Below, piece after piece: positions 22,851 to 37,378 of a DNA stretch of 64,000 nucleotides. Each line of letters starts with the position of its first letter. Position 1 is the first letter of the stretch. The position numbers were made by a program, and so were the translations under genes. The DNA is from a virus, in the IMG/VR virus record IMGVR_UViG_3300019776_000324, positions 250,001 to 314,000 of that record. The stretch is one strand, 5' to 3'. The notes below the pieces were generated by a model. The model was given only the letters and a program-made list of their open reading frames with translations, had not been told where the DNA came from and did not search any database.

Positions 22851-22858
22851 CATAAATA
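22851..22858 (+). promoter_or_regulatory. T4-type late promoter, CATAAATA, 7 nt from the ATG
   Basis: CATAAATA then TTAGATT and ATG at 22866; no ribosome binding site. Predicted leaderless. Confidence 0.6.
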
Positions 22859-24636: not shown

Positions 24637-24644
24637 AATAAATA
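24637..24644 (+). promoter_or_regulatory. T4-type late promoter, AATAAATA, 5 nt from the ATG
   Basis: AATAAATA then CATCT and ATG at 24650. Drives the presumed internal-head-protein operon; predicted leaderless. Confidence 0.55.
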
Positions 24645-24649
24645 CATCT

Positions 24650-27600
24650 ATGAACATTCTTGAATTAGATTCCTATAATCTTGCTGACGCAGTTAAATTT
24701 AATAAAACATTAAATCCTAAAATCTGGGCTGGCGAAACAATGCGCCCCGAAGTTAGAGAAAAGCTATTAGCTATTGCTGAGGATTTTAAAGAATTTCTAG
24801 GCTTAAGTGACATTGAAGTCAAAGACATTACAGTGTCTGGCAGTAATGCCAACTACAGCTATACACCATACAGTGATATTGACTTGCATTTGGTAGTTGA
24901 TATTCCCCGTGCAGACAATGATGAAGTTTATCGTGAATTGTTTGATGCTAAAAAATATCAATACAACGATTTACATGATTACAAAATTGGCGGTTACGAT
25001 GTTGAGTTGTATGTAGAAAACGCAAACGAACCTCCTGTTTCTAAAGGTGTATACTCTATATTAAACAGCGACTGGATAAATATTCCTCGCAAGATTCGCA
25101 GTGAAGTCAACGACAATGCAGTTCGTAGCAAGTACGAAGATCTAAAACACCGTATTGACAATGCCATTGCTAGTGATGATTCTCAAGTGATTGATCGCTT
25201 GGCCAAGAAAATTAAAGATCTGCGTCAAGCAGGACTAGATGCACATGGCGAACTAGGAGCAGAAAATCTTGCTTATAAAATGTTACGCACACAGGGCAAG
25301 ATTAAAGAATTATACGATGCTCGTAATGCAGCCAAAGATCAAGAATTAAGTTTAAAAGAACGAGCACCAAAAGAAAAATTCACTTATGGATTTAAAGAAG
25401 ATGTTGGTATGAGCTGGGACGGAGTTAGTCCTACAACCAAAATGTTCTTGAGTGAAGAACCACCCGAACTCACAGACGAAGAAGTACTACGAGATTTTAT
25501 TAAATTCTGCGTTCAAGAATTAAAAATTGAAGCATTACCCAAAGTCAAGTTGCGCAGAGATCCACAGTGGAGTGTGCGTAACAAAACATTTGGTCGTTAT
25601 ATCAACGACATTCATACCTTGGAAGTGGCATTTGGTCAACGACACATCATGGATGTGCTCCGTACAGTGGCACACGAATTAACACACAAACATCAACACG
25701 AGCGTGACGGTGCCAAGATGGGTGCAGATGCAGGTGAAACTGGCAGTCCATGGGAAAATGAAGCCAATGCCCGTGCTGGTATTCTAATGCGTGACTATGG
25801 TCGACTACATCCAGAATTGTTTGATAGTAGCCAAACTGAATTGGGCGAAAGTGCCAGCGGTTATATTCCTACTAAGAAACAGGCCAACGATCCTCGTTTC
25901 AAAATGGCACTTACCAAAGATATTCGTCCGGGACAACTAGGCAAAGAAGCAAACAAATTAAAATTAAAGACAGACAGTCAGGGTCATCCACAAATAGCTA
26001 ACCCAAATGGCCTGTTTGAAAAACTAGCATTAGAATTAAATCAGTTCAAGCGCCGTGGTACTGTATTAGAGTCTGAGCAGTTGGATGAAGTTAGTATGCG
26101 TCCCAGCAGTCTTAAACAGTTTGCCAACAGCGAAGAAGCCAAGGGCATACAAGCTGGCTTTGAAGCAGAATTAATTTTCCGTGACACTACCAGCGATGAA
26201 AATGATGGCGAGGACATGGAACCTGACTATGACATGGACGAGCGTTGCCGTAGCATTAGTCAAGTTGTAGAGTTTTTCCAAGATGACGAATACGGATACG
26301 GATTAACTGAGCGTCAAGCTTCACGCTTACAAGACAGCTTGGACGAACAGTACATGGAGTGGTCAGACGAGCAAATGTACGACGCCTGGCGCGATGAGCG
26401 TGATGAATTGATTAAAGATGCGTGGTTGCGTGAAAAATCAATGGACGAGCGCATTCATGCTGCCCTAGTAGACGGATTAGATTTAACAGATGCGCAAGCC
26501 GATGCTGTTGTTAAACTGCACGATGATCGTGCCAGTGGCAAAATCAAAGGCAGTGAAATGAGCGATGAGCAGTTGGAGATGGCCAGCCAGTACAGCGAAG
26601 CTGTTTCCATTGCTGAAGATATTTTACAAGAAGATGTTGAACAAACCATAGAAAAAGAAGATGGTTTCTATGATGAAGTCTTAGATGATTTCCGCAGTAA
26701 TTTTTATGTTGATGATGATTCGGGCTTTTTTGATGATGTTGGCCTGCGCTGGATGAGTGATGTTGCTAACTCATATGACTTGGGTTGGCCTTATCTAACT
26801 GGCGGTGGCGGCAATGATGGCTCACGCAGTTGGGAAGAAATTGGCGATAGTTTACAACAAGCTGTTGATATGCCGGTTAAAGTAAGTAGCGGATATCACA
26901 GTGCTACACGCAAACCAGGTTTGTGGATTGTAGAACCAGACTCTAGTTTAGAACCAGATGATCGTGAAGATTATGGTTTAGAAATTGTAAGCCCTCCTAT
27001 GCCGTTGGAGCAGGCTTTAGAAAAATTAAAACAAGTTGCTGACTGGGCCAACCGCGAGGGTGATGCTTATACCAACAGTTCAACTGGCTTACATATGGGC
27101 GTAAGTGTACCTTACAAAGGTGGTGATGTTGACTACTTAAAGTTGATCCTGTTCCTAGGCGATGAGTATGTGTTAAAATCATTTGGTCGTCAAGCCAACA
27201 CCTATACCAAGAGTGCAATGAGCAAGTTTAAAGAAAACATCAAAGGTGGCCGTACTGATCCAATGAGCGTGATCAAACTCATGCAACACGGCCTGCTTGA
27301 GTTGGCACAGCGTGAAGTACAAAAAGGTGTTGGTGAAGGCAAGTATACCAGTGCTCACAAACAAAACAAATATATTGAATTCCGTAGTGCCGGAGGAGAT
27401 TGGTTAGCAGGTACCAATCCAATGCTAGGCGAAGCTGATGATGGATTTGTCGCTGGTAGTATGGACAAATTACAAAACACCATGATGCGCTATGCCTATG
27501 CCATGTATCTGGCAAGTCGTCCAGATCTTGAGCGCAGAGAATATGCTAAAAAGTTATACAAGCTAATTGCTCCCGAAGGCGATAGTCAACTGGCCCTGTT

Positions 27601-28849
27601 TAGTCAGTATGCTGCAGGCGAGCTCACAGCTGAGCAACTCAAAAAGCAATGGGCCGAAAAGACCATTGGCAAAGAAAAGAAAATGAACCAGCGTTGGAAA
27701 CTGTTCCAATTTGATAAAGTTGCTGACCAATGGTTGCCTGTCCCGGGTGCTGAGTGGAACGGTTACACTGAAGATCAAGTTAAAAATGCAGTATGGAGCA
27801 AGTATGGTCGCGAAGCATTAGACTCAGGTGAGTATGAATTACGCAACATGAGTGAAGATCAACAGTGGGAAGTCTACGATGTCAACACCGGTGATGTTCT
27901 TGAAATTGTTAAAGGCAAGAACAAAGGCGAAGTTGCTGACAAAGTGTACGACAAGTATAAGGATCAAGGAATAGGATTCAATGTTCGTCCGTATGAGGAT
28001 CCAACTACATTGACTCCTCGTGCCAAGTTAGCCAAGCGTATCGCTCAACCCAAGCAAGAACCTGACCAGACTGTAGATATGACGCCCGGTAATTGGGAAT
28101 TTTTCTACGAACCAACTGGACGAGTACTTGACGCAGTCTCTGGCGTTAGCACAACTCAAGCTAGAGCTGTGCTGGCTGATGTTCAACGCCGTTATAATGA
28201 TTTGGCCGCACCTAGTATTAAGATGCGTAAAACTGGTGAAGCCGCACCGGATGTAGCACAAAACTTTAGTCAAAATCCTAACCCAACAGCACCTATAGCC
28301 AATCAAGTGCGTATGCCTAACGGTGTGCCTGTTTGGGAATTGTTTGATATTGATACTGGCAGTGCCTTACATGCTATTGCTGATCATACTGGTCGCGAAG
28401 CATATACTCAAGGCATGGCATGGTTGCGCTCAGTTGGTGCTGAAAATCCAGAAACATACGGCGAGCGTTTTGCTATTCGTCCCAAGCGTTTACAACCAGG
28501 AGAACAAAATTTATCAGCTCCGCAAGATGCTACACAACGAGTAGGATCCTGGAGCATATATGATGTTACCTTAGGAAGAGAAATCAGTAGAATGGACGAT
28601 GTTTCGTTCGCACAGGCTGATGCTCGTGCTAATGAATTAGAGCGTAGCACTGGACATAACATGTCAGTTAGAGGTTTATCTGAGAACTTTGCCGATGGCA
28701 AGGGTCCCGGTCGCCCAGGAGATAGTCAGCGTCACGGAATACCTAAAGGTGCTACTATAGCTGAGTTAGAAAAAGCAGCTAAAGCACCAGGTCGTAAAGG
28801 ACAATTGGCCCGTTGGCAGTTAAATATGCGTAGAGGAAAGAAAAAATGA
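24650..28849 (+). CDS. Giant multidomain protein: nucleotidyltransferase, HExxH peptidase, amidoligase-like, C-terminal repeats
   Basis: 1399 aa. The ATG at 24650 is chosen because the longer frame begins with a TTG inside the terminator. Residues about 55-125: nucleotidyltransferase-type GSNANYSY...SDIDLHLVV. About 285-400: zinc-peptidase motif VAHELTHKHQHE (HExxH near 341). About 500-890: amidoligase-like, starting GFEAELIF, with YGLEIVSPPMPLEQAL and STGLHMGVSVP, and interrupted by a long acidic helical insert. About 1010-1350: five divergent W(E/K/S)(V/L/F/I)(Y/F) repeats. C-terminus GDSQRHGIPKG...RKGQLARWQLNM. First gene of the internal-protein cassette; probably a virion protein. Domain calls vary in strength; the amidoligase call is moderate. 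Confidence 0.65.
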   Translation: MNILELDSYNLADAVKFNKTLNPKIWAGETMRPEVREKLLAIAEDFKEFLGLSDIEVKDITVSGSNANYSYTPYSDIDLHLVVDIPRADNDEVYRELFDAKKYQYNDLHDYKIGGYDVELYVENANEPPVSKGVYSILNSDWINIPRKIRSEVNDNAVRSKYEDLKHRIDNAIASDDSQVIDRLAKKIKDLRQAGLDAHGELGAENLAYKMLRTQGKIKELYDARNAAKDQELSLKERAPKEKFTYGFKEDVGMSWDGVSPTTKMFLSEEPPELTDEEVLRDFIKFCVQELKIEALPKVKLRRDPQWSVRNKTFGRYINDIHTLEVAFGQRHIMDVLRTVAHELTHKHQHERDGAKMGADAGETGSPWENEANARAGILMRDYGRLHPELFDSSQTELGESASGYIPTKKQANDPRFKMALTKDIRPGQLGKEANKLKLKTDSQGHPQIANPNGLFEKLALELNQFKRRGTVLESEQLDEVSMRPSSLKQFANSEEAKGIQAGFEAELIFRDTTSDENDGEDMEPDYDMDERCRSISQVVEFFQDDEYGYGLTERQASRLQDSLDEQYMEWSDEQMYDAWRDERDELIKDAWLREKSMDERIHAALVDGLDLTDAQADAVVKLHDDRASGKIKGSEMSDEQLEMASQYSEAVSIAEDILQEDVEQTIEKEDGFYDEVLDDFRSNFYVDDDSGFFDDVGLRWMSDVANSYDLGWPYLTGGGGNDGSRSWEEIGDSLQQAVDMPVKVSSGYHSATRKPGLWIVEPDSSLEPDDREDYGLEIVSPPMPLEQALEKLKQVADWANREGDAYTNSSTGLHMGVSVPYKGGDVDYLKLILFLGDEYVLKSFGRQANTYTKSAMSKFKENIKGGRTDPMSVIKLMQHGLLELAQREVQKGVGEGKYTSAHKQNKYIEFRSAGGDWLAGTNPMLGEADDGFVAGSMDKLQNTMMRYAYAMYLASRPDLERREYAKKLYKLIAPEGDSQLALFSQYAAGELTAEQLKKQWAEKTIGKEKKMNQRWKLFQFDKVADQWLPVPGAEWNGYTEDQVKNAVWSKYGREALDSGEYELRNMSEDQQWEVYDVNTGDVLEIVKGKNKGEVADKVYDKYKDQGIGFNVRPYEDPTTLTPRAKLAKRIAQPKQEPDQTVDMTPGNWEFFYEPTGRVLDAVSGVSTTQARAVLADVQRRYNDLAAPSIKMRKTGEAAPDVAQNFSQNPNPTAPIANQVRMPNGVPVWELFDIDTGSALHAIADHTGREAYTQGMAWLRSVGAENPETYGERFAIRPKRLQPGEQNLSAPQDATQRVGSWSIYDVTLGREISRMDDVSFAQADARANELERSTGHNMSVRGLSENFADGKGPGRPGDSQRHGIPKGATIAELEKAAKAPGRKGQLARWQLNMRRGKKK

Positions 28850-29397
28850 GAGCTAGTGATTTTATAACAGAAGCAGTTAAACAACGCTTGGATCCCAAGT
28901 GCTGGAAGGGCAAGCACAAAGAAGGCACCAAAGTAAAAGGTGGTGTTAGAGTTAACAACTGTGTGCCCAACGAAAGTGTTGAACTAGATGAAGAATTTGA
29001 TCTTATCGAAAGCATTATTGAAACACTAGCTGAACGCAATCAAGTTGATGCTGAAGCTATCTGGGAAGATCTAGAGTCATTAACTGATGATGAGCTGTAT
29101 GTGTTTGCTACTACAACTCCAGTCATGGAAGATTGGCAAAAAGTCAATAAGAAGGACAAAACAGATGGCATGAGTACAAAAGCTGTTAAGGCCTATCGTC
29201 GTGAACATCCTGGTTCAAAGTTAAAGACTGCTGTGACTACCAAGCCCAGCAAGTTAAAGAAGGGTAGTAAAGCCAGCAAGCGTCGTAAGAGTTATTGCTC
29301 ACGCTCAAAGGGTCAAATGAAAATGCACAACATCAGCTGTGCGAAAACTCCAGATAAAGCTATCTGCAAAGCCCGCCGTCGTTGGAACTGTGAATGA
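28846..29397 (+). CDS. Basic Cys-containing protein with capsid-targeting-like N-terminus
   Basis: 183 aa, ATGA-coupled to the giant gene. MRASDFITEA resembles the T4 internal-protein leader (MKTYQEFIAEA), with a prohead-protease-type site ITE/A after residue 9. Then LDPKCWKGKHKEGTKVKGG..VNNCVP (residues about 14-42), an acidic middle (ELDEEFDLIE), and a strongly basic end with CSRSKG...SCAKTPDKAICKARRRWNC. The basic, Cys-patterned tail suggests DNA binding in the capsid; function otherwise unknown. Confidence 0.65.
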   Translation: MRASDFITEAVKQRLDPKCWKGKHKEGTKVKGGVRVNNCVPNESVELDEEFDLIESIIETLAERNQVDAEAIWEDLESLTDDELYVFATTTPVMEDWQKVNKKDKTDGMSTKAVKAYRREHPGSKLKTAVTTKPSKLKKGSKASKRRKSYCSRSKGQMKMHNISCAKTPDKAICKARRRWNCE

Positions 29398-31385
29398 GAT
29401 TTAAGGAATTTGTCACAGAATACAGCCAGCTAAAAACACAGCGGGCTCATCGTGATGGCTTAGATCTTGAGGTTCGTAGTAATGATGAAAATGTAAGCAT
29501 CTATGCTTATGCCAATGGTAAAGAACTTGCCCATGTGCATTTTGATCGAGTTGGTAACAATATTCTACCATATGATTTAGAAGTGGGCGAACACTATCGC
29601 GGTCAAGGTATTGCTAGTGTAATGTATGATTATGCCAAAGAGTTAGGCTATACAATAAAACGCAGTAGCGAGCAAACAGATGCAGGTCGTGCATTCTGGA
29701 ATAAGAATCGCGGTGAAGAAGGAAACATTTGGGAAGATAAAACACTAGATCCTGAGATCTATGGTGAGATGCTTCCCACCTCCACAGTCAAGCGCATTGT
29801 TACCAGTGTAATGAAACAAGTAGATCCTACAGCTAAAGTCACAGTTAAACAAAGTCCAGAAGGTTACTATAATGTTAATAGTGACAAACTTAGATTAGAC
29901 TTTGGTATCACTGCTGATGGTGGCGAGATCAATGCCAACATTGTTAATGCTTATAGTAGTTACAAGGGTGCTGGTGTTGTTACTAACATATTTGCTCAAT
30001 GCTTTAAGGCCGCAGAACAACTATGGGGCAAGCCCGCTAAGTTTGTTATGAGTGCTCACGAAGATCGTGGACACGGAGTATGGCAACACATAGCACAGAA
30101 ACTAGGTGCTGAGTGGCAAGGTAGCATAAGTGAAATAGCCCGCATACCAAATGATTACTATTCTGGAGGTAAAGAATCGTTACCCATTAACCCATCTGCT
30201 AGAAAATCCCAAATAAAACCGTTACCAGGTGGCAGTGGATTTGGATATTATACTCGCGAAGCGCCTGGTAGTATCATTATTTACATTGTGGATCCTAACA
30301 AGCCAGCTGAGCAACGAGATAATAAAAATGATATTATTGTAGCCATGTTAAGTTTAGATAAATGTCAATGGATTCCTGGTGCCTATACAGTTAATTCAGT
30401 CACTACAGACGAGGCGTATCGAGGTCGTGGACTTGGACATAGTTTGTATGGTATAGCATTATCAATCTTAGGTCTTACATTAGTTTCTGGAACCGAACAA
30501 ACATCTAGTGGTAGAAGTATGTGGAAAACAATAAGCAATTTTCCTGGAGTAGACATTAAAGGTTATACCAAAGCAACAGATAATCAAGCAAAACAACTAT
30601 TAAAACAAAATGGTGCTCAACCACTTACCGGAGACTATTGGACTTTTCCTATCAAACAAGGTAAACACGAACTTAAAAGCACCATACCGGATGTGCCAAC
30701 ATATCATACTCAATTTGCTAAAGATGTGCCGTACCACAAAATCTATAGAACTGGTCTAATTGCCAAGTGGAATCCAGGTCGAACTAATACTGTAAATGAA
30801 ATAGCCCGCATACCACAAAGCGAACTAGGTGACTGGGGAGAAGAAGGAACTATTGTTCCACCAGAACATCCAGTAGAAAAGAAGCCATTGCCTGGCGGCA
30901 GTAAGTTTACCTATGCTGTAGATAAAAACAGCCAGGGCAATCTAGAAATACTAATATTCGATGGCGAAAAGTTAGCTGCCGAATTAGACTTGTTTGAAAC
31001 AGGTGATGTGCTGAACACTTGGGGTGTAGAAACTATTGTAGTTGAACGCCCATATCGTGGACAGGGGTTGGGCAAAGCCTTATATGGTATTGCCTTAAGC
31101 ATACTAAAACTTACCATAGAAGCTGGCTCAACACAAACACGACATGGCCAACAGATGTGGTTAATGCTTAACAGTATTCCAGGAGTAGAAGTCAAAGGCT
31201 ACACTATGGTTCCTACTGCCAAGTATCAACCTAACAAGAATGATACCATTGTCAAGCAAGACAAAGACTGGACTCGTTATACATTCCCGGTTCATCCAGG
31301 AAAACAAAGTATGCGTAGTGGTCGCCCAGGTGCTGGACTTTATACTAGTCAAGCAACTATGATAGCTAAATGGACAGGTAAATGA
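29394..31385 (+). CDS. Tandem GNAT-acetyltransferase protein with capsid-targeting-like N-terminus
   Basis: 663 aa, ATGA-coupled. It begins MRFKEFVTEY. GNAT acetyl-CoA-loop motifs recur: YRGQGIASVMYDYA near 68, YRGRGLGHSLYGIA near 342, YRGQGLGKALYGIA near 553; a diverged copy seems to lie between residues 125 and 245. Linkers before the third and fourth domains repeat SEIARIP / NEIARIP and KPLPGGS(G/K)F. Acetyltransferases acting on host proteins or small molecules after injection are conceivable (inference). The last two domains are close duplicates (GIALSIL(G/K)LT). Confidence 0.7.
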   Translation: MRFKEFVTEYSQLKTQRAHRDGLDLEVRSNDENVSIYAYANGKELAHVHFDRVGNNILPYDLEVGEHYRGQGIASVMYDYAKELGYTIKRSSEQTDAGRAFWNKNRGEEGNIWEDKTLDPEIYGEMLPTSTVKRIVTSVMKQVDPTAKVTVKQSPEGYYNVNSDKLRLDFGITADGGEINANIVNAYSSYKGAGVVTNIFAQCFKAAEQLWGKPAKFVMSAHEDRGHGVWQHIAQKLGAEWQGSISEIARIPNDYYSGGKESLPINPSARKSQIKPLPGGSGFGYYTREAPGSIIIYIVDPNKPAEQRDNKNDIIVAMLSLDKCQWIPGAYTVNSVTTDEAYRGRGLGHSLYGIALSILGLTLVSGTEQTSSGRSMWKTISNFPGVDIKGYTKATDNQAKQLLKQNGAQPLTGDYWTFPIKQGKHELKSTIPDVPTYHTQFAKDVPYHKIYRTGLIAKWNPGRTNTVNEIARIPQSELGDWGEEGTIVPPEHPVEKKPLPGGSKFTYAVDKNSQGNLEILIFDGEKLAAELDLFETGDVLNTWGVETIVVERPYRGQGLGKALYGIALSILKLTIEAGSTQTRHGQQMWLMLNSIPGVEVKGYTMVPTAKYQPNKNDTIVKQDKDWTRYTFPVHPGKQSMRSGRPGAGLYTSQATMIAKWTGK

Positions 31386-32113
31386 CAACAGTTACCGGTG
31401 GCGTAGTAACAACTGATGGTGCATATACTGTACGCACTTTTGAAACCTCTGGCACATTAACTGTGTCTGGCGGAACATTAACTGATGTGCAATACTTGTT
31501 GATTGCTGGCGGCGGTCGTGCCGCAGTTCCAACTAGTTCCTATGTGGCCGGTGGAGGTGCTGGTGGTGCTCTAACAGGCAACATTACTCTTAATGCTGGT
31601 ACATATCCTGTAGTCATAGGTGAAGCTACAATAAGTAGTGCTTTTAATGATCTTGTAACTATACCCGGCGGCACAGGAGGATTTTATGGTAATGGATTCT
31701 CAGGTGGTTCAGGTGGTGGTGGTGGAGTAATAGGTGTTACTCATATAAATTTTCAGAACTTTGTTGCTGGCAATGGCACACCCGGACAAGGACATGCAGG
31801 GGGCAATCCCTATGGTGGTGGATATCCACCATTTGGCCCAGGTGGCGGTGGTGGTGCATCAGGACCCGGTGGACAAGGCAGTGCTGACGGAGTTGGTGGT
31901 GCAGGTGGCCCAGGCTTAGCCAGCGATATAACTGGTAATACTGTTTATTATGCAGGTGGCGGTGCTGGCAAAGGACCCAAAGGTATTGGGAATAATAGCC
32001 CCGGATACGACAACTACGGAGCTGGCGGTGGTTACTCAAGCACGGTAAATAATAACTACGGAGAGTTACTATCTCCACAACCCGGAGTGTTGATTTTAAG
32101 GTACCTAACATGA
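31382..32113 (+). CDS. Glycine-rich structural or adhesin-like protein
   Basis: 243 aa, ATGA-coupled. After a beta-rich N-terminus (VRTFETSGTLTVSGGTL, YLLIAGGG), residues about 55-230 are dominated by Gly with Ala/Ser/Pro (GGGAGG, GGGGGVIG), ending GVLILRYLT. This matches the glycine-rich domain proteins of phage tails and adhesins. Its place amid internal-protein genes is unexpected. Confidence 0.6.
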   Translation: MTTVTGGVVTTDGAYTVRTFETSGTLTVSGGTLTDVQYLLIAGGGRAAVPTSSYVAGGGAGGALTGNITLNAGTYPVVIGEATISSAFNDLVTIPGGTGGFYGNGFSGGSGGGGGVIGVTHINFQNFVAGNGTPGQGHAGGNPYGGGYPPFGPGGGGGASGPGGQGSADGVGGAGGPGLASDITGNTVYYAGGGAGKGPKGIGNNSPGYDNYGAGGGYSSTVNNNYGELLSPQPGVLILRYLT

Positions 32114-32322
32114 GATTTCAAGAAATAGTCGAAGCTAAAAACACAAATCCTATTGTAAATTACAATTTGTGGACAGCACAGGTACAGATCAAACAACCTA
32201 ACTATGTTGGCCGTATTGATGTTACTGTAACTGCTGCCAACGCACAAGATGCTCGCTTGTTAATGAAATCACAGTATGGTGTTGAATTTTGGCAAATTGG
32301 CAGTGTTAAACAAGTAAAATGA
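32110..32322 (+). CDS. Small protein with capsid-targeting-like N-terminus
   Basis: 70 aa, ATGA-coupled. MRFQEIVEA gives an IVE/A prohead-protease-type site at residues 6-9. The mature part would be a single alpha/beta domain (VTVTAANAQDARLLMKSQYG). Candidate internal head protein; activity unknown. Confidence 0.6.
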   Translation: MRFQEIVEAKNTNPIVNYNLWTAQVQIKQPNYVGRIDVTVTAANAQDARLLMKSQYGVEFWQIGSVKQVK

Positions 32323-32681
32323 GACTCAAAGAATTCGAACAAAAAGGCACTGATGCTGAACATGTGCTTGCTTATGTAAACAGCATACATCACGGCTTCA
32401 ATATTCCTGATACTATTTTAAATCACCCACAATGGCGCAAGACTCGTGTGCCACTAAACAAGCTACATATTCCCGACGAAGAAGGCGAAGACCTAGAAGA
32501 TCCGTACAATCGAGTACAGTGGATTGACTATGATCAAGTTAAAAGCGTTGATCGCCAATACATTGAAACACATCCTATTGTAGTAGACACCAATGGGCAT
32601 ATTATCGACGGTAATCACCGTGCTATAGCCGCTAAACTAGGCGGCATGTTTGACATTCCGGCATACATACCCACCAAATAA
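32319..32681 (+). CDS. ParB/Srx-like domain protein
   Basis: 120 aa, ATGA-coupled. Starts MRLKEFEQK, like its neighbours but without the Glu/Ala cleavage site. The block HPIVVDTNGHIIDGNHRAIAA (residues about 84-104) is the ParB-like nuclease motif (DGxHRxxA). The family includes nucleases and phosphotransfer enzymes; which applies here is unknown. Confidence 0.65.
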   Translation: MRLKEFEQKGTDAEHVLAYVNSIHHGFNIPDTILNHPQWRKTRVPLNKLHIPDEEGEDLEDPYNRVQWIDYDQVKSVDRQYIETHPIVVDTNGHIIDGNHRAIAAKLGGMFDIPAYIPTK

Positions 32682-32688
32682 TATACAG

Positions 32689-32695
32689 CTAAATA
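32689..32695 (+). promoter_or_regulatory. T4-type late promoter, CTAAATA, 4 nt from the ATG
   Basis: CTAAATA, CAGC, ATG at 32700. The shortest spacing in the window; no Shine-Dalgarno. Confidence 0.55.
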
Positions 32696-32699
32696 CAGC

Positions 32700-32993
32700 A
32701 TGGATAAGAAATTTGTGCGAGTATTAGCTGATGTACATTGCGAATGGGAAGGCCTAGATCCTATCTATCGTTTGTATGTTAATGACGAACTATTTGCCGA
32801 GCGCACATGGACATGGGCCAGTGCTTATCTTGAAGAAAATCTACAAATTGAAGCTGAACCCGGCGAATATACTATACGCTACGAATTAGTACAGCCGCAT
32901 CTAGCTGAATTAAAAGTAGAAAATATCCGTGTTGATTTTGGACCCGGAGTTATAGAAAATAATGTACTAAGGATTACCAATGAGACTGTATGA
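32700..32993 (+). CDS. Unknown beta-sandwich-like protein, 97 aa
   Basis: Alternating pattern with RLYVNDELFAERTWTW (24-39) and PGEYTIRYELV (58-68). Looks like a small Ig-like virion protein. Its 3' end overlaps the next gene by 14 nt. Confidence 0.55.
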   Translation: MDKKFVRVLADVHCEWEGLDPIYRLYVNDELFAERTWTWASAYLEENLQIEAEPGEYTIRYELVQPHLAELKVENIRVDFGPGVIENNVLRITNETV

Positions 32994-33180
32994 ATTTGTT
33001 AACTTGACTGAAGAAGCAAGTGCTTGTAGCACCACAGCAGGCAGTATTGCTCCGGTAAGTTCACCCATTGGTGGAATGGTCGCAAGAAATGCAGGATCTT
33101 TCTTTGCTGGTAAATACACTACTGACGATGCAACGCCTAATACGCCTGCAGAGTACAAAAAGTATAAACGGAAGAAATAA
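32980..33180 (+). CDS. Small internal-head-protein candidate, 66 aa
   Basis: MRLYEFVNLTEEASACS: capsid-targeting-like leader with LTE/E or TEE/A as possible protease site. The remainder is Ala/Ser/Gly/Pro-rich (APVSSPIGGMVARNAGSFF) with a basic tail (YKKYKRKK). TAATG overlap with the Dps gene. Function unknown. Confidence 0.6.
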   Translation: MRLYEFVNLTEEASACSTTAGSIAPVSSPIGGMVARNAGSFFAGKYTTDDATPNTPAEYKKYKRKK

Positions 33181-33620
33181 TGTTAGCTGATTTATTAAAA
33201 ACTTACTTGGCCAGTACATTTTCGTACTATTTAAAAGCCCACATGTTCCATTGGAATGTGGAAGGTCCAGACTTTGGCGAACTACATGGTTTCTTTTCAC
33301 AAATTTATGAAGATGCGTTTGATGCAGTAGATCCTATTGCTGAATTTATCCGTACTGCAGAAGAATATGCCCCAGGAAGCCTAACCCGCTTTCATGAATT
33401 AACACAAATACAGGACCAAACCAAGGTCCCTCGTGCCCGATTAATGTTAGAAGAATTACTCGCAGATACACAGACCATGAAAGATCTAAGCAAACAAGTG
33501 TTTGATGTTTCAACCCAAGAAGGTCGTGATGATGTTGCAAACTTTGCCGCAGATAGACTAAGCCAACACGGCAAGTACATGTGGCAACTTAAGAGTTATT
33601 TGAAAGACGCTAGGGCATGA
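33180..33620 (+). CDS. dps: Dps-like ferritin, intact ferroxidase site
   Basis: 146 aa four-helix protein. HWNVEGPDFGELHGFFSQIY carries His24 and His36, followed by Asp51 and Glu55; the spacings of 12, 15 and 4 residues match the Dps ferroxidase centre. Dps dodecamers store iron and protect DNA from peroxide. In a phage it could guard replicating or packaged DNA; location is unknown as it lacks the capsid-targeting-like leader of its neighbours. Confidence 0.8.
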   Translation: MLADLLKTYLASTFSYYLKAHMFHWNVEGPDFGELHGFFSQIYEDAFDAVDPIAEFIRTAEEYAPGSLTRFHELTQIQDQTKVPRARLMLEELLADTQTMKDLSKQVFDVSTQEGRDDVANFAADRLSQHGKYMWQLKSYLKDARA

Positions 33621-33623
33621 TCA

Positions 33624-34244
33624 ATGCAAGACCATAACGATATATACTCCATTGTAGAACGCCTCCGTATGTTGGAGGAAGGTCTTGACAAGAATCAAAA
33701 GAGTGTCAATCAACTCAGTGCCACATTTAAACCAAAAACAGTAGCAGTACTCACAGCCAAAACAGATCCTAAAAATCCTCTAGCCGGCAAGCTGGTTGGT
33801 GGCGCAGAAGAAAGCGTAGAGTCCGACGAAGAGCCATTGGAAGAAGCTATTACTAGCGAAGATGTGCTGGACAAAGTTAAAAAATCATTTGCTGATTATC
33901 TAAGTAATATAGCAGATGAAATCAAACAAGATTCCGATCTCAAAGACAAGAAAAAAGAAGATACTGATCTAAAGCAAAAAGAAAAGAAGGATCGTGATCT
34001 TGTTTCTAAACAAATCGATGAACATGGTACTAATCTTCCAGAAGCAGTCAAATGTGTCACTATGGAAGATGGTCGCGTTTGTGAAATACACGGCGATGAC
34101 AACTCTGGGTTTGAGATCCACCACGGTAACCGTAGTTTACCAACAAGATTTAAAGATTTAGCTGAAGCCGAAATGGCTTTAGAAATGTTTATGAGTCGTC
34201 GTCGTAAGACTGACGAAGCACAAGATTATATTGAAGAAGCTTAA
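33624..34244 (+). CDS. Charged, coiled-coil-rich protein of the internal-protein block
   Basis: 206 aa. An alpha-helical N-terminus (IYSIVERLRMLEEGLDKNQKS) is followed by an acidic segment (ESDEEPLEEA) and a Lys/Asp-repeat helix (DLKDKKKEDTDLKQKEKKD, about 113-131). The C-terminal domain has VTMEDGRVCEIHGDD. Several L.EA / LPEA / LAEA sites would suit a T4-type prohead protease. Scaffold- or core-like role inferred. Confidence 0.5.
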   Translation: MQDHNDIYSIVERLRMLEEGLDKNQKSVNQLSATFKPKTVAVLTAKTDPKNPLAGKLVGGAEESVESDEEPLEEAITSEDVLDKVKKSFADYLSNIADEIKQDSDLKDKKKEDTDLKQKEKKDRDLVSKQIDEHGTNLPEAVKCVTMEDGRVCEIHGDDNSGFEIHHGNRSLPTRFKDLAEAEMALEMFMSRRRKTDEAQDYIEEA

Positions 34245-34256
34245 GGAAAAAAAGAA

Positions 34257-36758
34257 ATGAATTTGTTAAACCTATTTGAAGGACGCGAACCGCATCAACA
34301 AGCTATTGACAAGCTGGAACAGGCTCGTATTGATCACTTAAAAGAAAAAATGGATTACTATGCTAAACACGGCATGGTAGAACAATTCAAAAAAGCCAAA
34401 GCTGAACACGACAGTTATTTTAAAGTTCAAGATGAGTGCATGGGATATGGTAGTGTTGTTGGCGAACAAGGCATTCCTGGTTCAGTACCAACAGAAAAGA
34501 TTCCTGGCAAAGAAGACTTACTCCGAGGCAAGGGTCGTAGCTACTACGAATCAGTCGAAGAAGTTAATCCAAGTAAAAAAGTATTCAAAGACAAAGCTGG
34601 TAAACCAGTAGGAGAGATTGGTATTGATCCTGAATCAAGTCCTGGCAATAGCGAATGGTATGTATATCATTACGGCACAGGTTATAGTGTTGTTGGATTC
34701 GATAGTGCCGCAGAAGCTAAACGCGAATTAATGTATGTTCACAAGCATCCAGAAGCGGTCGAAGGGCACGAATCAACATTTGACGAAGCTGGTATTCCTG
34801 GTAATGTTCCAGTTGAAAAGATTCCAGGTAAAGAAGATTTGCTAAAGGGCAAGGGTCGTAGCTACTACGAAGCCCAAGACCAAAAAAAAAATTCTGAAGA
34901 AGTAGATAAGCTACAAACAGCTGCAAGAGAGTTTATAGAATTAATAAACGATCGCACTGGTCCTATCTATAAAGCATATTATCGTAGTTTTCCAAAAGGT
35001 TCTGCACTAGAAGCAGAACTGCGTAAACGCATTGCCGCCAAGTATGGCGTTGCAGAAAAAGAACTTGCTAACGCCGAAGCTGGCGATCGTGCTCGTCGCA
35101 TGTTTGGTAATAAACTCAATGAAGATCAAAAGTTACATGTAGGTGATCCTATCATTGTTACAGCTCCTAATGAGTTTGAAGGCAAGACTGGTGAGATTGC
35201 AGAGTTCAGCCCAAGTGGCGCATTTGTTGTTGTAAACTTATACAACCACGGTGAACACAGCATGCACCTGAGTGATGTTGAGTTTAATCAATATGCCGCA
35301 GATCAAGAAGATGAAGATGACTGGTACGACGACGGTGCAGAAGATACATTAGAAGAAGAACAAAAAGAATTCCTGTACACAGTTGAATGCGATGGCTACA
35401 ACAAAGGTAACTTTGTTAATAAAAACGACGCAATCTTTAGTGCTCAGTACATGATCTACTATGGCGAAAAAGAATATAACAAGATTGAAGTTATTGAACT
35501 TAAAACAGGTGATGTAATCTGGGAATGGCATGGCAAGAAAGCAGACAACGATGTTGCTCCTACAGAAGTAGAAGTAGGTGAAGGTTGGAGCAACAAGATG
35601 GTTGCTCAAAGAACCGGTCAAGCTCCAACACCATATTCAGTTTATATCAAAGGTAAAGAATGGAAGAGCTTTGCTGACGATGATCATGCTGAAAATGTAG
35701 CTAACAAGTTAAGAGCTAAATTCAAAGCAGAAGGTAAAGATCCTAGTGTTATTACTATTGCACCTACTGACTACGATAAAGATCTTAAAGAATTCGCACC
35801 AGGTGGCGGATATCAAGAACCACCTCCACCAGTATTAAAGAAAAAAGATCCGTTTGATGACGATGATCGTAGTATCTATCCACGCAAGATTCAACAACTA
35901 TTAACCAGTGGTGCTAAAGTAGATAGCCGTGTTCCTGGTGCTATGGGACACATTATTGCAGCTAATGGCGAAATGATTAGAATGAAGCCATTGAACAAGC
36001 CATACAGCCAAAAGAAATATGCTTGGTATATTGATCAAGAGCGTGATGATAAACTTTTATTAAAGCAAGTTGAACCTAACCATTATGTATTGTATGATCG
36101 TGATTGGTTGCCACAAGGCACAACAGAGGCTGCTAATCCAGCACAACAGGCCGCTATTGCCGTTGCTATGAAGAAGGCTGGCAAGAAACCTAAGAGTGTT
36201 GATGAAGGTATCATGGATGTTGTTAAACAAACATTCAACGACAATGTAGTAGGTTGGCCAATGGGCACTTCTACTGAACAGTTTATACAAGGTTGGGCTA
36301 GAGATATTAAAAATCGCACAGGAAAAAATGTTCCAGTAGAAAAGTTAACACAGTTGTACAATAACTATGTTAAGCGTTCTGGTGAACTTATGCAATCACA
36401 TGGCACCACTAACGAAGCTGAAACAGATTATTCTAAGCGTCGCCAGCGTGAGCGTGATGTAGATGCAGGTAAGCCCGTAGCAAAACAGCGCCAACCCAAG
36501 ATGACTGATTATCAAAAGCGCCGTGCTCAGCAGAAGAAAGAAATGGAACTAGGCGAGGATCAAGACACTAGTGGTGTTGAGAGCGCAATTATTCGTCGTA
36601 TTATGGTAGCACACACAGACTTGTTACAACAGTTTGGCCCAGAAAAAGTCATGCAGGCCGCAGAAGAAGTTGCTTACAATGTAGGCGATGTTGACGAAAT
36701 TGGTACCAGTGATGTCAGTGCTTGGGTACACGAAGTCAAACAAATCCTTGGTGCCTAA
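34257..36758 (+). CDS. Large internal-virion-protein candidate with duplicated module
   Basis: 833 aa, RBS AAGGAAAAA. It begins MNLLNLFEG; LFE/G fits the T4 prohead protease consensus. A module of 27 residues starting GIPG(S/N)VP is present twice (bases about 34471-34551 and 34792-34872) and ends GKGRSYYE. The middle has an SH3/KOW-like strip (VGDPIIVTAPNEFEGKTGEIAEF, near 300). The C-terminal segments (IIRRIMVAHTDLLQQFGPEKVMQAAEEVAYNVGD) are helical. The DNA-binding or structural role is unknown. TAATG overlap with the deaminase gene. Confidence 0.55.
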   Translation: MNLLNLFEGREPHQQAIDKLEQARIDHLKEKMDYYAKHGMVEQFKKAKAEHDSYFKVQDECMGYGSVVGEQGIPGSVPTEKIPGKEDLLRGKGRSYYESVEEVNPSKKVFKDKAGKPVGEIGIDPESSPGNSEWYVYHYGTGYSVVGFDSAAEAKRELMYVHKHPEAVEGHESTFDEAGIPGNVPVEKIPGKEDLLKGKGRSYYEAQDQKKNSEEVDKLQTAAREFIELINDRTGPIYKAYYRSFPKGSALEAELRKRIAAKYGVAEKELANAEAGDRARRMFGNKLNEDQKLHVGDPIIVTAPNEFEGKTGEIAEFSPSGAFVVVNLYNHGEHSMHLSDVEFNQYAADQEDEDDWYDDGAEDTLEEEQKEFLYTVECDGYNKGNFVNKNDAIFSAQYMIYYGEKEYNKIEVIELKTGDVIWEWHGKKADNDVAPTEVEVGEGWSNKMVAQRTGQAPTPYSVYIKGKEWKSFADDDHAENVANKLRAKFKAEGKDPSVITIAPTDYDKDLKEFAPGGGYQEPPPPVLKKKDPFDDDDRSIYPRKIQQLLTSGAKVDSRVPGAMGHIIAANGEMIRMKPLNKPYSQKKYAWYIDQERDDKLLLKQVEPNHYVLYDRDWLPQGTTEAANPAQQAAIAVAMKKAGKKPKSVDEGIMDVVKQTFNDNVVGWPMGTSTEQFIQGWARDIKNRTGKNVPVEKLTQLYNNYVKRSGELMQSHGTTNEAETDYSKRRQRERDVDAGKPVAKQRQPKMTDYQKRRAQQKKEMELGEDQDTSGVESAIIRRIMVAHTDLLQQFGPEKVMQAAEEVAYNVGDVDEIGTSDVSAWVHEVKQILGA

Positions 36759-37378
36759 TGAGAGCAGAAGAGTTCACAGTTAGTCTAGACGAAAAATTAG
36801 ATGAAATTCTAGTTCGTCTCTGTGAACTTGTAGTTCAAGGTCAAAAAGAAAATCAAGACCTAGGCATGGTGGCTGCCGCTGTATTAGATCCCGATGATAA
36901 TTGTGTAACAGGTATTAACTATCCTGCACGAGATGGTAAGCGTGTTCATGCCGAGCGTGCCGCTATAAACAACTATATTGATCGTTTTGGCCCTGTTCCT
37001 CCTGGCAGTATTGTTATTACAACATTAAGTCCATGCAATCAAGATATGGATAGTCGAGCAGGAGAAAGTTGTCAAGCGTTATTAGATCAACACGGCATTG
37101 ATTCAGTTTACTGTGGTTATGTTGATCCTACACAAGATAAGCATCAAGTCGGCTTAACTGCTAATAAAAAAATACAAGCATTGTGTAAAGCATTCGCTGA
37201 CACTTTTCTTAAAGACAAACTAGACGAACTTGAATTTTTAGGTAGCCCTTGCACCAAAGACTGTTCAGGTCATCGTGCCGGATATGCATGGGCACAAAGC
37301 AAAGGCGGTCGTGTTGCTAACAGTCCATTTAGTCCTAGCTTTAATAACGGCAGTCAGCTTTATGTTGATGGTAAGTAA
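36758..37378 (+). CDS. Zinc deaminase-like protein with capsid-targeting-like start
   Basis: 206 aa; the TAATG junction fixes the start. MRAEEF opens like the neighbouring leaders. Deaminase motifs: VHAERAAIN (HAE, near residue 67) and SPCNQDMDSRAGESC, a PC-x11-C zinc site with an unusually long insert. The C-terminal 50 residues (SPCTKDCSGHRAGYAWAQ then SPSFNNGSQL) form a separate Cys/His motif of unknown purpose. Substrate may be a nucleotide, nucleic acid or other amine; the position suggests it might be injected. Confidence 0.65.
   Translation: MRAEEFTVSLDEKLDEILVRLCELVVQGQKENQDLGMVAAAVLDPDDNCVTGINYPARDGKRVHAERAAINNYIDRFGPVPPGSIVITTLSPCNQDMDSRAGESCQALLDQHGIDSVYCGYVDPTQDKHQVGLTANKKIQALCKAFADTFLKDKLDELEFLGSPCTKDCSGHRAGYAWAQSKGGRVANSPFSPSFNNGSQLYVDGK

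Follow-up and report, generated by a model that had tools for sequence, protein, structure and literature searches.

The tagged gene block

The locus described here raises the question of why several consecutive phage genes, encoding otherwise unrelated proteins, open with variants of one short N-terminal sequence. The window, by which we mean the whole stretch of 64,000 nucleotides that was analysed, corresponds to bases 250001-314000 of a 344,244-base IMG/VR virus record, and the genes in question lie at 28846-37378 (Table 1; coordinates are those of the window unless the genome is named). A sequence-only reading had listed seven N-termini in this segment and likened them to the capsid-targeting sequence (CTS) of the phage T4 internal proteins, which is removed by the prohead protease gp21. 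All seven are found in the sequence, and the description of several consecutive genes as tagged is right, although to call all of them tagged would be wrong because genes 31382, 32700, 33180 and 33624 lie within the block and have no leader.

Table 1. Leader-bearing genes, their neighbours and promoter-like elements in the window (a slash marks the putative cleavage point)
Feature	Coordinates	Strand	Description
ATAAATA, second core	22852..22858	+	Upstream of 22866
ATAAATA	24638..24644	+	T4-type late promoter core-like, just before the block's first gene
24650	24650..28849	+	1399-aa multidomain protein, block's first gene; N-terminus MNILELD, not a clear leader
28846	28846..29397	+	183-aa leader protein; MRASDFITE/A at 28846-28872; DUF6321 body (PF19846, 3.5e-9), basic Cys-rich tail
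29394	29394..31385	+	663-aa, tandem GNAT (PF00583, 6.3e-13; PF13508, 5.2e-11); leader MRFKEFVTE/Y at 29394-29420
31382	31382..32113	+	243-aa Gly-rich protein within block; no leader
32110	32110..32322	+	70-aa small protein; leader MRFQEIVE/A
32319	32319..32681	+	120-aa ParB-like (phrog_620, 4.9e-6); leader-like MRLKEFEQK, no cleavage Glu at position 9
32700	32700..32993	+	97-aa protein within block; no leader
32980	32980..33180	+	66-aa protein; N-terminus MRLYEFVNLTEE; leader MRLYEFVNLTE/E
33180	33180..33620	+	Ferritin/Dps-like (PF00210, 1e-19) within block; no leader
33624	33624..34244	+	206-aa protein within block; no leader
34257	34257..36758	+	833-aa, no recognised domain; N-terminus MNLLNLFE/G
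36758	36758..37378	+	206-aa cytidine/dCMP-deaminase-like (PF00383, 7.9e-10); leader-like MRAEEFTVS without cleavage Glu; C-terminal CTKDCSGHRAGY module

The bodies behind these N-termini comprise a basic DUF6321 protein, tandem GNATs, a small alpha-beta protein, a ParB-like protein, a peptide resembling the gp23 N-arm, the 833-aa protein and a deaminase-like protein. They had been described as enzymes and basic proteins, and domain matches bear this out for the GNAT, the dCMP/cytidine deaminase, the DUF6321 protein with its basic tail and the ParB-like protein. The longest ORF of gene 36758 starts at a TTG at 36722, with the ATG at 36758 the likely start. An AF2 model of the 32110 protein has a leader helix, a poorly defined linker and then a compact strand-strand-helix domain; its weak likeness to ribosomal LX, T7 Gp2 and the RNA polymerase subunit YkzG is not significant (E >0.03). 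The leaderless 24650 protein contains an amidoligase domain (PF12224, 5.9e-9), a nucleotidyltransferase match just under the cut-off (PF01909, 6e-4) and an HExxH peptidase-like motif, which reads HELTH in the sequence.

We think that the leader is probably a T4-type capsid-targeting and prohead-protease tag, interchangeable over many cargo proteins. The peptide MR(A)x(E/D)F(I/L/V)xE would recruit unrelated proteins to the scaffold core in the prohead during head assembly, the phage's own gp21-type protease would cleave past the last Glu of the leader, and the freed cargo would stay packed beside the DNA in the head and be delivered into the cell together with it. The genes behind the leader would then amount to a set of exchangeable cargo, in which the tag is conserved while the bodies turn over among related phages. 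That the leader is a capsid-targeting, gp21-cleaved propeptide of the T4 type, as originally proposed, has strong support from the sequences, namely the unrelated bodies, the co-occurrence with gp21 and gp23, the match to the gp23 site and the T4 control.

Head genes of the phage

The record represents an uncultured 344-kb T4-like jumbo phage encoding gp20, gp21, gp22 and gp23, and the closest counterparts of its DNA polymerase are those of Phosso, Atu_ph07 and similar T4-like jumbo phages (46-50% identity). The head operon has the T4 order 20-67-68-21-22-23 (portal, 67- and 68-position genes, gp21 protease, gp22, gp23), with profile matches for the gp21 protease (PF03420, 5.9e-24) and gp23 (PF07068, 9.8e-98). 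A gp21 protease and a T4-type head are thus encoded in this leader-bearing genome, and the same is true of all nine large tagged contigs: among the matches listed, 9/9 contigs of at least 130 kb encode both gp21 and gp23. No gp21 was found in the 21 listed tagged contigs shorter than 130 kb, which are therefore no test of co-occurrence. The gp23 match at L183 (contig G014) contains one in-frame TAA, either a sequencing error or an interrupted gene.

Distribution of the leader

The pattern M[RK]x{1,2}[ED]F opens nine proteins among the 412 called genes of the genome, as against 4/1781 occurrences after an internal Met and a mean of 1.5 (maximum 6) in 2000 column permutations of the starts. Five of the nine MRxx(E/D)F starts fall in the 10 called genes of the block (hypergeometric p 3e-7). 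A search for the leader in the remaining genome, which had been suggested as a check, located strict leaders at genome positions 127896 (with a GTG start), 129153 and 129548; the simple gene caller missed the second of these, which was recovered by pattern search. These three paralogous genes, at 127.9-129.7 kb in a tail/terminase gene region, start with MRAREFIAE, MRAVEFITE and MRAKEFIRE and all end in a SPVKxFKGYKR-like tail, and the gene at 124735 opens with the T4-like MKNFKDYLTES. The family formed by the three paralogues, which adjoin the terminase gene and which we refer to as FKGY, has at least 147 IMG/VR relatives in one cluster; no match to it was found among 50,697 isolate phage records, nor any structural match to its AF2 model.

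A DNA pattern search of IMG/VR for MRAxEF(I/L/V/F/M)xE with AGA as the Arg codon returned at least 120 stretches, and the version with CGN Arg codons again at least 120, compared with eight for a control in which E and F were swapped and the same codons were used. The matches open an ORF with only a short open stretch upstream in 142 of the 158 listed cases, as against 4/8 in the swapped control. A chance origin of the leader is ruled out by the internal-Met, permutation and swapped-pattern controls. With the AGA pattern, bacterial and archaeal genomes (257 Gb) yielded 60 stretches, about as many as estimated for chance, of which 15 open an ORF. Together the two scans gave at least 292 non-redundant tagged ORFs in at least 55 body clusters among the matches listed, though some of these clusters are perhaps still distantly related. 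In the closest isolated jumbo phages the strict pattern is essentially absent (none in Atu_ph07 or GAP32, one poor match in Phosso), and the idea that these relatives share the leader was rejected.

In the listed matches Arg is encoded by AGA, CGA, CGT, CGG and CGC, and all four Ala, both Glu and both Phe codons are used, so conservation is at the amino-acid rather than the nucleotide level. This bears on the suggestion that the leader is a by-product of the ATGA stop-start overlap, which favours Arg or Lys at codon 2, or a relic of one duplicated gene. Several window genes do overlap by 4 bases, and 99/292 listed leader starts overlap the upstream stop by ATGA, but the other 193/292 do not; moreover, overlap leaves E5, F6, I7 and E9 unexplained, Arg is also encoded by CGN codons, the bodies fall into 55 clusters among the matches listed, and the swapped control is rare. 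We regard this origin as highly improbable, and a nucleotide-level element or the ATGA overlap as the whole cause is ruled out by the codon diversity and the non-overlapping starts.

The modularity of the tag is evident from its presence on non-homologous bodies (the 55 clusters) and from homologues of tagged bodies that lack it. For example, a leaderless S-RIM32 protein begins directly at the body, MANVTQLKHLEHLED, where its tagged counterpart reads MRAFEFLTEA-VGREFNHLEDLVF. None of the cyanophage homologues of the 28846 body begins with the leader, and their annotation as a 'structural protein' is therefore no evidence for the tag. The GNAT gene of the window matches five IMG/VR loci, and relatives of it in L020 and L021 retain a leader. 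Two of the five, on 228-kb and 317-kb contigs, have a similar block order in which tagged genes have been gained and lost, with tags that include MRAQEFLAE, MRSDEFISE, MRFSEFVAE, MRASEFIAE, MKAYEFITE and MRAEEFLFE; to judge from these loci, the bodies vary more between related phages than the tag does.

The leader end and the gp23 maturation site

Aligned with T4, in which the gp23 cut is at FLTE/A, the cuts in the gp23s of these phages are predicted at YLKE/NAS, LLAE/SS and HLAE/SAS, which amounts to an (L)xE rule. The leader Glu coincides with this maturation site: small leader proteins have FIAE/NASAGGTSSGSIAT where the phage gp23 has YLKE/NASSGSTASGNIAT. When the collected loci were searched with the gp23-site motif, the gp23s themselves were found together with three small tagged proteins and two further proteins that match internally. 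In the three small proteins the leader Glu occupies the cut position (MRASEFIAE/NASAGGTSSGSIAT, MRIKEIME/NASVGST and MRIREIME/NASGGST), and about 13 residues past it resemble the gp23 N-arm. This search, which we consider the best single evidence, suggests a prohead-protease site at the end of the leader. Relatives of the 32980 protein likewise carry the gp23 maturation-site sequence ENASxGxTSSGSIAT immediately behind the leader. Small tagged copies of the gp23 arm are present at 32980-33180 of the window, at L021:11500-11703 and in L079 and L093; such a copy could be a shell-binding peptide or a decoy.

The T4 cleavage rule had been matched to FITE/A, IVE/A and LFE/G; for the seven leaders together it fits only in part. 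A (hydrophobic)xE leader end can be read in genes 28846, 29394, 32110, 32980 and 34257, giving a full or near fit in five (FITE/A, FVTE/Y, IVE/A, LTE/E and LFE/G), and is absent from MRLKEFEQK (32319) and MRAEEFTVS (36758). Leader residues F, I and E correspond to residues 7, 8 and 10 of the T4 CTS, and the arrangement expected of a CTS propeptide (short, 10-19 aa in that class, with a targeting F and a processing I and E) is seen in the leader alignment, the 292 listed ORFs and the T4 control. At leader position 10 hydrophobic residues are depleted in the listed tagged ORFs (14% vs 22%, p 8e-4), an effect that loses significance when the FKGY family is left out (p 0.08), and the residues found there (Q, D, N, R, K) range more widely than the A or G that predominates in T4.

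Short N-terminal tags can also serve as intracellular addresses, for instance to a replication site or membrane, or as degradation or regulation signals, apart from any role in the virion, and the cleavage Glu is missing from a few leaders. Such a function seems very unlikely for this leader, however, since it ends at a prohead-protease-like site that matches the gp23 context, is accompanied by gp21 and gp23 in 9/9 large contigs, and has similar counterparts on T4 ipII and ipIII.

Putative cargo

Other tagged bodies include GH19 with or without LysM, ART-PolyVal, ParB_N, amidoligase, DUF6934 and GP88 proteins, among others, and a DUF6267 body with a KWDG ligase-like motif. A defence-system library searched against 79 tagged proteins gave three weak single matches only, and some of the cargo is not obviously anti-defence, such as the GH19 cell-wall hydrolases, two of which have a Tat-like signal. 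We infer that leader proteins would be packaged, cleaved and injected, to serve host take-over or counter-defence; the block itself may be an injected arsenal against host defences, as first suggested.

Alternatively, the leader might be a head-assembly signal only, the tagged proteins being internal structural or scaffold-associated components that serve to condense the DNA or to line the shell, with few if any delivered. The commonest tagged family, FKGY (at least 147 in its cluster), is encoded in the tail/terminase region and has no enzyme signature, the gp23 N-arm is copied by small tagged proteins, and many tagged bodies end in basic tails, all of which would suit such a role. GNAT, ART, ParB-like, deaminase, amidoligase and GH19 bodies would nevertheless be unusual structural parts, and close relatives differ in body content, so that we hold this explanation to be unlikely as compared with a tag for delivered cargo.

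In the two GH19 proteins with a Tat-like signal (L056:2992-3609, plus strand, and L104:3861-4493, minus strand; only L104 has a scored GH19 match, L056 being assigned by likeness), the sequence RRGFL stands directly behind the leader, MRATEFVTEMDRRGFLRGLAGAGAMAATGA. The combination suggests two addresses on one protein. A bolder proposal, which we put forward tentatively and consider somewhat doubtful, is that an uncultured T4-like jumbo clade has a general delivery system in which a 9-residue tag brings an open-ended range of over 50 cargo families into the capsid, and that the Tat-signal GH19 is exported onward to the periplasm after injection.

Certain C-terminal modules also recur on unrelated tagged proteins, namely CTKDCSGHRAGY...SPSFNNG, HWCANMKSGRKK and the DUF6321 RRWNC module (e.g. 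window 37200-37378, L021:7652-8230 and L079); it is possible that they act as a second tag or a DNA-binding tail.

Comparison with known systems

The ten N-terminal residues of T4 IPIII are enough for incorporation (PMC9026906, PMC3012670), residues 4 and 7 of the CTS serving in targeting and residues 8 and 10 in processing (PMC9026906). The T4 internal proteins retain the CTS while their bodies diverge (PMC9026906, PMC3012670) and inhibit different type IV restriction enzymes (PMC12373910). As a positive control, an analogous pattern found three T4 sites, ipII, ipIII and 61.1. The system described here resembles the CTS proteins of T4 (IPI, IPII, IPIII and Alt) in its short N-terminal E-F-I-x-E peptide, the predicted cleavage rule of gp21 type, the conserved tag in front of unrelated bodies and the head gene order, and the ipII and ipIII N-termini fit the scheme. 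It differs in that the leader is one residue shorter and begins MRA rather than MKT, several tagged genes are found per block and there is a second block, the gp23 cut precedes N or S instead of A, and the putative cargo consists largely of recognisable enzymes, in more than 50 body clusters.

The domain vocabulary (GNAT, ART, kinase, ParB-like, nucleotidyltransferase, peptidase, lysozyme) is shared with the polyvalent proteins of phages and conjugative elements, for which injection along with the DNA has been proposed (Iyer et al. 2017, PMC5512222). Polyvalent proteins, however, join between 2 and 15 disparate domains within a single polypeptide, whereas the tagged proteins are mostly encoded by separate single-domain genes with a common leader; the leader genes of the window have one domain type each, and only the leaderless 24650 gene looks multidomain. 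The ejection (inner body) proteins of phiKZ and SPN3US are also jumbo phage head proteins that a prohead protease cleaves behind xxE before they are ejected, but their propeptides are mostly much longer, exceeding 100 residues in several SPN3US proteins (PMC5694885). Here the predicted propeptide is 8-12 residues (about 9 aa) and the head is of the T4 gp21/22/23 type, other head proteins being used there. The packaged anti-restriction proteins of the P1 DarA/DdrB type, compared by description only, are similar in being head-packaged and early-acting, and P1 DdrB has a ParB-like domain (PMC5512222). We know of no MRAxEF leader shared by the DarA/DdrB-type proteins.

For few phages has it been established which proteins accompany the DNA into the cell. 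If the tag is a capsid-targeting sequence, its 27-base pattern would directly list candidate injected proteins in metagenomes, including families without an isolate counterpart. The T4 internal-protein idea, so far a matter of a few small inhibitors of restriction, would then extend to a large set of exchangeable enzymes, and a second natural leader would be at hand for putting foreign proteins into phage heads.

Indirect virion data from PA5oct and possible late expression

The isolated Pseudomonas jumbo phage PA5oct encodes a homologue of the 124735 protein that aligns from residue 1 (MKSFRDYYDAS) and is marked as detected by mass spectrometry (MS), as is its 67-position protein, MKINDIITEG. 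Leader-like starts are found in 6/93 MS-detected and 5/281 other PA5oct proteins (p 0.03, post hoc), and a five-point leader score showed no enrichment among the MS-detected proteins (p 0.95). The enrichment being weak and score-dependent, the PA5oct annotation was dropped as a general test and only the evidence from homologues was used.

The T4 late promoter sequence TATAAATA is not enriched in the genome, but the shorter ATAAATA is, preceding 22 genes as against 5.5 in shuffled sequence. Genes with this motif in front include gp18, gp19, the MKNFKDYL gene and the first ones upstream of the block, though the copy at 24638 is very near the ATG and its role is thus uncertain. Copies only 5-8 bases in front of the start codon occur in several genes, for example at genome positions 138970, 141281, 263037, 274650 and 306488. 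Although an ordinary promoter would not lie so close to its ATG as some copies do, the distribution of ATAAATA fits late expression.
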